Source of the DNA: an uncultured Butyrivibrio sp.
Lineage (GTDB): Bacteria; Bacillota; Clostridia; Lachnospirales; Lachnospiraceae
Direction of reading: 5' to 3'
Length of the DNA: 41,063 bases
Assembly (NCBI GenBank): GCA_947168935.1
Contig: CAMVNV010000019.1
Location: 1-41,063 of the forward strand
The notes below the pieces were generated by a model that searched no databases, had not been told where the DNA came from, and saw only the letters and a list, made by a program, of their open reading frames with translations. Numbering within the stretch: position 1 is the stretch's first letter; each line of letters begins with the position of its first letter. Position numbers and translations under genes: made by a program. Below, in pieces: positions 6,919 through 6,990 of this stretch.

Positions 6919-6990
6919 TATTATACATTTAATTATTTTTTTCAGTTCGTCATCCGACGAAATGCATTTTTTAGACGACGAAATGCATTT
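6919..6990 (-). promoter_or_regulatory. Candidate promoter with LytTR/ComE-like direct repeats (site A)
   Basis: Plus-strand CGACGAAATGCATTT at 6955-6969 and 6976-6990 (21-bp period); minus-strand TATAAT at 6920-6925, 30 nt downstream of the box. Confidence 0.6.

Follow-up and report, generated by a model that had tools for sequence, protein, structure and literature searches.

The window analysed here, 41,063 nucleotides long, is one contig, C19, of a genome (G000) that measures 3.5 Mb, is 81% complete and comes from a Butyrivibrio close to B. fibrisolvens, a rumen bacterium. It contains three candidate regulatory sites, A, B and C, all on the minus strand and each followed by an unrelated type of gene. 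Site A precedes an operon in the order trypsin-FHA / WXG100 / WXG100 / YwqH-like / RHS, whose first gene (4736..6565) encodes a 609-aa trypsin-like protease with an FHA domain (PF13365, 2.6e-17; PF00498, 1.2e-17). It is followed by two WXG100 genes (4302-4610 and 3936-4241; PF06013), a gene for a YwqH-like protein (3406-3873; PF16888, just below the cut-off), a small ORF (3023-3358) and an RHS-repeat toxin-like gene that runs off the window edge (3..2936; PF05593, 2.7e-75, and PF20148). The gene behind site B (20130..20753) encodes a 207-aa double zinc-ribbon protein (PF12773, 6.6e-27) and the one behind site C (26302..27771) a 489-aa GGDEF-domain protein (PF00990, 1.7e-17), in which the roughly 330 residues preceding the GGDEF domain gave no Pfam match at the threshold applied. 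A link between c-di-GMP and a type VII secretion system (T7SS) through this protein would be unusual.

The minus strand at site A (6950..6989) reads AATGCATTTCGTCGTCTAAAAAATGCATTTCGTCGGATGA, with TATAAT beyond. It carries AAATGCATTTCGTCG twice with a period of 21 bp, or, in terms of the longer half-site, TGCATTTCGTC at 6987-6977 and again at 6966-6956, and the −10 hexamer TATAAT (6920..6925) starts 30 nt past the second TTCGTC, as described in the initial annotation. The same layout had been proposed at 27894-27963 and 20817-20886, and it is indeed present in both places. Site C (27931..27962) consists of TGCAATTCGTC at 27962-27952 and TGCAATTAGTC at 27941-27931, again with period 21, followed at 31 nt by the hexamer TAAAAT (27894..27899), and site B (20854..20885) combines a degenerate first half, TGCATTTCACG at 20885-20875, with a good second half, AATTCGTC, and a TATAAT at 31 nt (20817..20822). 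A 40-nt matrix derived from 17 sites of the genome that all lie outside the window ranks A (52.7), C (23.9) and B (14.1) as the top three positions of the window, compared with 5.1 for the next-best position and a mean maximum of 6.7 in Markov-simulated windows, so that the observation is confirmed and is not due to chance. In a genome scan with a sequence profile, site A scores an E-value of 4.7e-10. The weaker third copy formerly placed at 6997 found no support, its period being 20 and its half-site matching at 5/6 positions; a third repeat at 21 bp does exist in one B. fibrisolvens site.

The genome carries about 28 or more such operators, each composed of two TTCGTC half-sites 21 bp apart with the half-site consensus TGYMNTTCGTC, and followed, typically at 31 nt, by a −10 of the form TAnAAT. 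The pattern TGNNNTTCGTCNNATAAANNNTGNNNTTCGTC, searched genome-wide with up to three mismatches, gives 20 matches against a single one for the reversed control, and the repeat pair combined with a spaced TANNAT gives five matches at four loci against none. A sequence-only profile of the 40-nt core detects 27-30 sites at E<=0.02, and a −10-like hexamer lies at 31-32 nt in 8/9 of the sites newly found by the profile, from which the −10 was absent. The bare pair TTCGTC-N14-16-TTCGTC shows no enrichment in this genome (7 matches against 9 in the control). Had these pairs been random, they would be expected in coding DNA; nearly all of the operators are intergenic and aimed at a gene on the same strand. 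The proposal of a regulon with a LytTR-type operator thus stands, at a scale of about 28 promoters instead of three genes.

The operator extends to other members of the genus. In B. fibrisolvens D1 (G066), where 5 kb of the second replicon match plasmid pNP243 of that strain with 100% identity and equal length, we detected 37 sites at E<=0.01, and other congeners use a variant, TGTCATTCGTCCGATTTCAAGTGTCATTCGTCAGAAA, in which the period and the distance to the −10 are unchanged. A strict linker pattern matched only the own genome among 60 relatives, and an exact degenerate pattern found five loci in GTDB genomes, none with the full motif including the −10; a broader model was needed because the sister species lies outside the 60 genomes sampled and the linker differs in other congeners. 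With a model covering both variants, 7/41 Butyrivibrio genomes contain 3-31 sites and 34/41 contain none. In 67/112 sites of these seven genomes, a TATAAT-like hexamer (at most one mismatch) starts at offset 31, the average for the remaining offsets being 2.2, and there is no peak of TTGACA 17 bp upstream of the −10, at the −35 position. A good −10 at a fixed offset without a recognisable −35 is, as far as promoter sequences can tell, the anatomy of activator-dependent promoters.

Direct repeats of the LytTR-operator type, i.e., repeats of 9-11 nt with 11-13 bp between them (PMC4847170), are thus present at about 28 sites of the genome under study and at 112 sites across the seven genomes. This layout is also that of the LytTR regulatory systems (LRS) HdrRM and BrsRM, in which a LytTR protein is paired with a membrane inhibitor and autoregulates; here, direct repeats of 9 bp with 12 bp between them (period 21) lie at a fixed distance upstream of the promoter, and bacteriocin genes are activated (PMC6193735). 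LRS repeats are biased to 10 bp upstream of the −35 (PMC6193735) which, with a 17-bp spacer, corresponds to about 33 bp from the repeats to the −10. Taking TGCATTTCG as the half-site would give a 9-12-9 arrangement and 33 bp in our operators, matching LRS. Likenesses also exist with the ComE, AgrA, VirR, YpdB and AlgR regulators, namely the LytTR fold, the FhRhHRS motif and repeats spaced by about two helical turns, as in the paired YpdB site GGCATTTCAT (PMC4847170). The TTCGTC core corresponds to six bases of the AlgR box CCGTTCGTC (PMC4064291).

The operators of the own genome serve WXG-like toxins (C33, C54), an RHS protein (C154), a Ser/Thr kinase (C63), a DUF6382-FHA protein (C135), a MoxR-like ATPase (C171), WG- and Sel1-repeat proteins, lipoproteins and zinc ribbons, the MoxR, lipoprotein and WXG-like labels being sequences read by eye. 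Overall, the target classes also include LXG-like toxins and an EssC operon. In one 16-80 kb region of B. fibrisolvens D1, a run of operators precedes toxins of 843-1222 aa and also serves a DUF6382-FHA / YukD / EssC operon, WXG100 genes and a kinase with a phosphatase. Sites of the TGTCATTCGTCCGATTTCAAGTGTCATTCGTCAGAAA variant precede other helical N-termini resembling those of T7SS effectors, as well as MoxR. Co-control of the T7SS/RHS module, the GGDEF protein and the zinc-ribbon protein, as first suggested for the window, is well supported by the geometry of the sites, their genome-wide distribution and the associated LytTR gene described below.

Near a GH2 gene (window 3-10723; L126, G066:C1:20001-40000), the operator position is kept in D1 with a different cassette behind it: the trypsin-FHA/WXG100/RHS operon in the window, a 967-aa WXG-like toxin in D1. 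This suggests that, at the position of site A, the switch stays in place while one toxin cassette replaces another. Several large toxin-like proteins (L126-L131 and L147 in D1, L047 and L050 in G000) form a family whose first 170 or so residues, with VWEGEDG among them, are nearly identical, and no Pfam match was obtained for the two G000 members scanned; this N-terminus is probably a T7SS targeting domain. A gene for a MoxR-type ATPase lies under the operator in two distant congeners (L083 in G025, L020 on C171 of G000), suggesting a role tied to the secretion system.

Thirteen LytTR proteins are encoded by the own genome, and no operator of this type was found in front of their genes; in G019 and G082, one LytTR gene lies just upstream of an operator. 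Among the thirteen, the candidate regulator is a protein of about 240 aa with a degenerate receiver and a LytTR domain, encoded directly downstream of the second, T7SSi-like EssC (G000:C16:33116-33835). The gene order EssC - LytTR - putative EspG-like - YukD-like is found in 8/8 genomes having this regulator. Among the 41 Butyrivibrio genomes, 7/8 of those that encode the regulator contain the operator, compared with 0/33 of the others (Fisher p 3.6e-7), a p-value that, like the one below, overstates independence since the genomes are related and about four lineages carry the system. Fifteen genomes contain the other EssC type only, with neither regulator nor operator, so that among EssC carriers the operator occurs in 7/8 with the regulator vs 0/15 without (p 3e-5); the operator thus tracks the regulator and not the T7SS as such. 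Operator and regulator clade also covary: clade 2 (G082, G019, G087) has C directly behind the first TTCGTC in 32/32 sites, vs 10/77 in G000, G066 and G085. In the three clade 2 genomes, the T7SS operon that encodes the regulator itself contains an operator, which follows the YukD-like gene. The T7SSi-like operon with the regulator gene yielded no operator in G000, G066, G085 and G025, so that autoregulation, usual for LytTR systems, is missing in these four. A diverged EssC-LytTR-YukD-like locus is present in G090 (L293, G090:C3), in which we detected neither an operator of this type nor a diverged operator in the T7SS locus; its regulator may use another site.

The only confident domain of the candidate regulator is LytTR (PF04397, E 5.4e-24), in which FIRCHRS fits the LytTR signature FhRhHRS. 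The Response_reg domain (PF00072) gives no Pfam match in this protein or in about 50 related protein clusters, and the next matches down are ordinary receivers with PF00072. The predicted structure (pLDDT 85) combines a REC-like fold with LytTR, and its best solved matches are full-length ComE (4cbv) and the DNA-bound LytTR domain of AgrA (3bs1; TM 0.83 over LytTR). The N-terminal domain has no acidic pair after strand 1, and the phospho-Asp is missing in the clade 2 regulators, which have Glu instead. The protein therefore differs from a canonical response regulator, whose receiver carries both an acidic pair and a phospho-Asp, and it seems incapable of being phosphorylated by the usual chemistry. 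A peptide- or stress-responsive response regulator had been anticipated from the repeats: the LytTR type agrees with this, and the input is probably wrong, since the degenerate receiver and the location in a T7SS operon do not indicate a phospho-relay of that kind. The same two features distinguish the candidate from ComE, AgrA, VirR, YpdB and AlgR, which are phospho-receivers with a kinase. Unlike LRS regulators, it has no paired membrane protein, its neighbours being EssC and the EspG-like protein, and repeats of its own operon are absent in four genomes and internal in G082, G019 and G087.

The EssC beside the candidate regulator matches TIGR03928 above the cut-off (914 bits) and contains an FHA domain (PF00498) at 120-188. 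The YukD-like protein of this locus matches PF08817 under the curated cut-off (E 0.0043 and 5e-4), and the EspG-like gene is so called for its suitable position and size, with no Pfam match and an unusable predicted fold (pLDDT 43). In B. fibrisolvens D1, the first EssC operon (33648-42275) encodes a protein with PF19909 and PF00498, a protein with PF08817 (E 2.3e-7) and an EssC (1140 bits), thus bringing together the DUF6382-FHA protein (TseJ), the ubiquitin-like protein (TseB) and the EssC that occur together in T7SSe. An EssC with an N-terminal FHA domain adjacent to a LytR-like regulator, the arrangement seen in 8/8 genomes, is one of the features of T7SSi. Judged by these domains, the EssC-LytTR locus appears T7SSi-like and the other EssC operon, by its DUF6382-FHA protein, T7SSe-like.

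The transcription factor DegU is a global NarL/LuxR-type regulator that is not encoded with a T7SS. It activates the Ess system of B. subtilis, a T7SS of Bacillota (PMC3701619), in which respect it would resemble the regulator proposed here. The closest precedent is the T7SSi of Vallitalea, which comprises an FHA-domain EssC, an EspG-like protein, a ubiquitin-like protein and the LytR-like TsiN (Garrett, Higginson and Palmer 2024, PMC11217815). According to these authors, TsiN 'may potentially' control T7SSi genes; they report T7SSi from Vallitalea alone, and describe neither a target site nor a regulon (PMC11217815). Our literature search, in which subscription journals were mostly outside the coverage, retrieved T7SSi/TsiN as the only LytTR regulator of a T7SS, with no operator or regulon. 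Both systems have a LytTR-family regulator in a T7SS core locus, an EssC with an N-terminal FHA domain, and WXG100 genes whose positions vary; the YukD-like protein found here may correspond to the ubiquitin-like one. They differ by the host, here Butyrivibrio, by the definition of an operator and about 28 promoters, and by targets that include a second EssC operon and dispersed toxins; the resemblance to TsiN is one of domains and locus.

We infer that A, B and C belong, as operators, to a scattered T7SS regulon that depends on an activator, most likely the EssC-adjacent LytTR protein, a reading to which we assign a probability of roughly 0.78. Two LytTR-type half-sites 21 bp apart on one face of the DNA would take a regulator dimer, and the bound dimer would abut RNA polymerase at a promoter whose −10, a good one, lies 31 nt beyond and which lacks a recognisable −35. 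The EssC-adjacent protein would thereby switch on the first EssC operon (T7SSe-like: DUF6382-FHA, YukD-like, EssC), together with WXG/RHS/LXG-like toxins, WXG100 partners, a kinase, a phosphatase, MoxR and many lipoproteins. Given a receiver that seems incapable of accepting a phosphoryl group, the signal might derive from the state of the secretion system.

It is unlikely, though this is the strongest competitor, that the operator is real and read by another LytTR protein, e.g., L003, which forms an LRS pair with a small membrane protein, or a two-component LytTR regulator. The genome offers 12 further LytTR proteins, all 13 have an ortholog in D1, and the 9-12-9 layout is that of LRS pairs. 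Five LRS-like pairs, each a LytTR-only protein followed by a small membrane-protein-like gene, are indeed recognisable in the own genome (L001, L003, L005, L006 and L011). L003 is also found in G066, G085 (99%), G082 (89%) and perhaps G019 (54%), and is absent from the operator-free G084 and G079. However, no LRS pair was seen beside any operator, L001, L005, L006 and L011 fail to reproduce the five-genome profile, and the other LytTR proteins have no link to T7SS genes or to the operator like that of the EssC-adjacent gene. Somewhat less probable again is a repressor that covers the repeats and keeps the promoters silent until the cell needs to secrete. The sequence alone holds nothing against it, but about 30 nt separate the end of the operator from the downstream −10, so that the repeats lie outside the core promoter, the promoters are without a −35, and in the published LRS cases LytTR proteins at such spacing are activators (PMC6193735).

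A very improbable reading is that of a short repeat, mobile or copied in some other way, that happens to sit between genes without being an operator. Most of the 40 nt are common to many copies and the toxin cassettes beside the sites are duplicated between loci, but conservation is limited to the half-sites, the A-rich spacer and the −10, with different flanks. Moreover, single-copy orthologous promoters keep the operator in the sister species, as for site B, whose operator also precedes the ortholog of its gene in B. fibrisolvens D1 (position 16115), and the strand and the distance to the −10 are fixed, the latter largely refuting the copied-repeat reading. Chance direct repeats beside ordinary promoters, suggested by the bare pair being no commoner than its control, are refuted by the fuller pattern scan, the −10 in newly found sites, the offset-31 peak about 30-fold over background and the leave-window-out matrix, and deserve almost no credence.

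An ordinary-looking LytTR-type operator thus defines an extensive T7SS regulon scattered over the genome, and one LytTR protein is a strong candidate for the regulator presumed to bind it. T7SS switching is poorly known in Bacillota, and a LytR-like regulator of T7SSi was previously only a guess; the present analysis provides a concrete operator, a promoter geometry, a regulon and a candidate regulator, in a genus of which one member, B. fibrisolvens D1, is in culture and has a complete genome sequence. The bolder idea that a phosphorylation-independent LytTR regulator in one T7SS locus reads the state of the apparatus and sets a second machine and its toxin arsenal through about 30 promoters is tentative, and we hold it to be rather less probable than its converse. 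If it were true, insertion behind an operator already in place would be enough to bring a new toxin cassette into the regulon. With many lipoproteins and functionally uncharacterised proteins among its members, the regulon is useful as a genome-wide index of likely secretion substrates and their partners.
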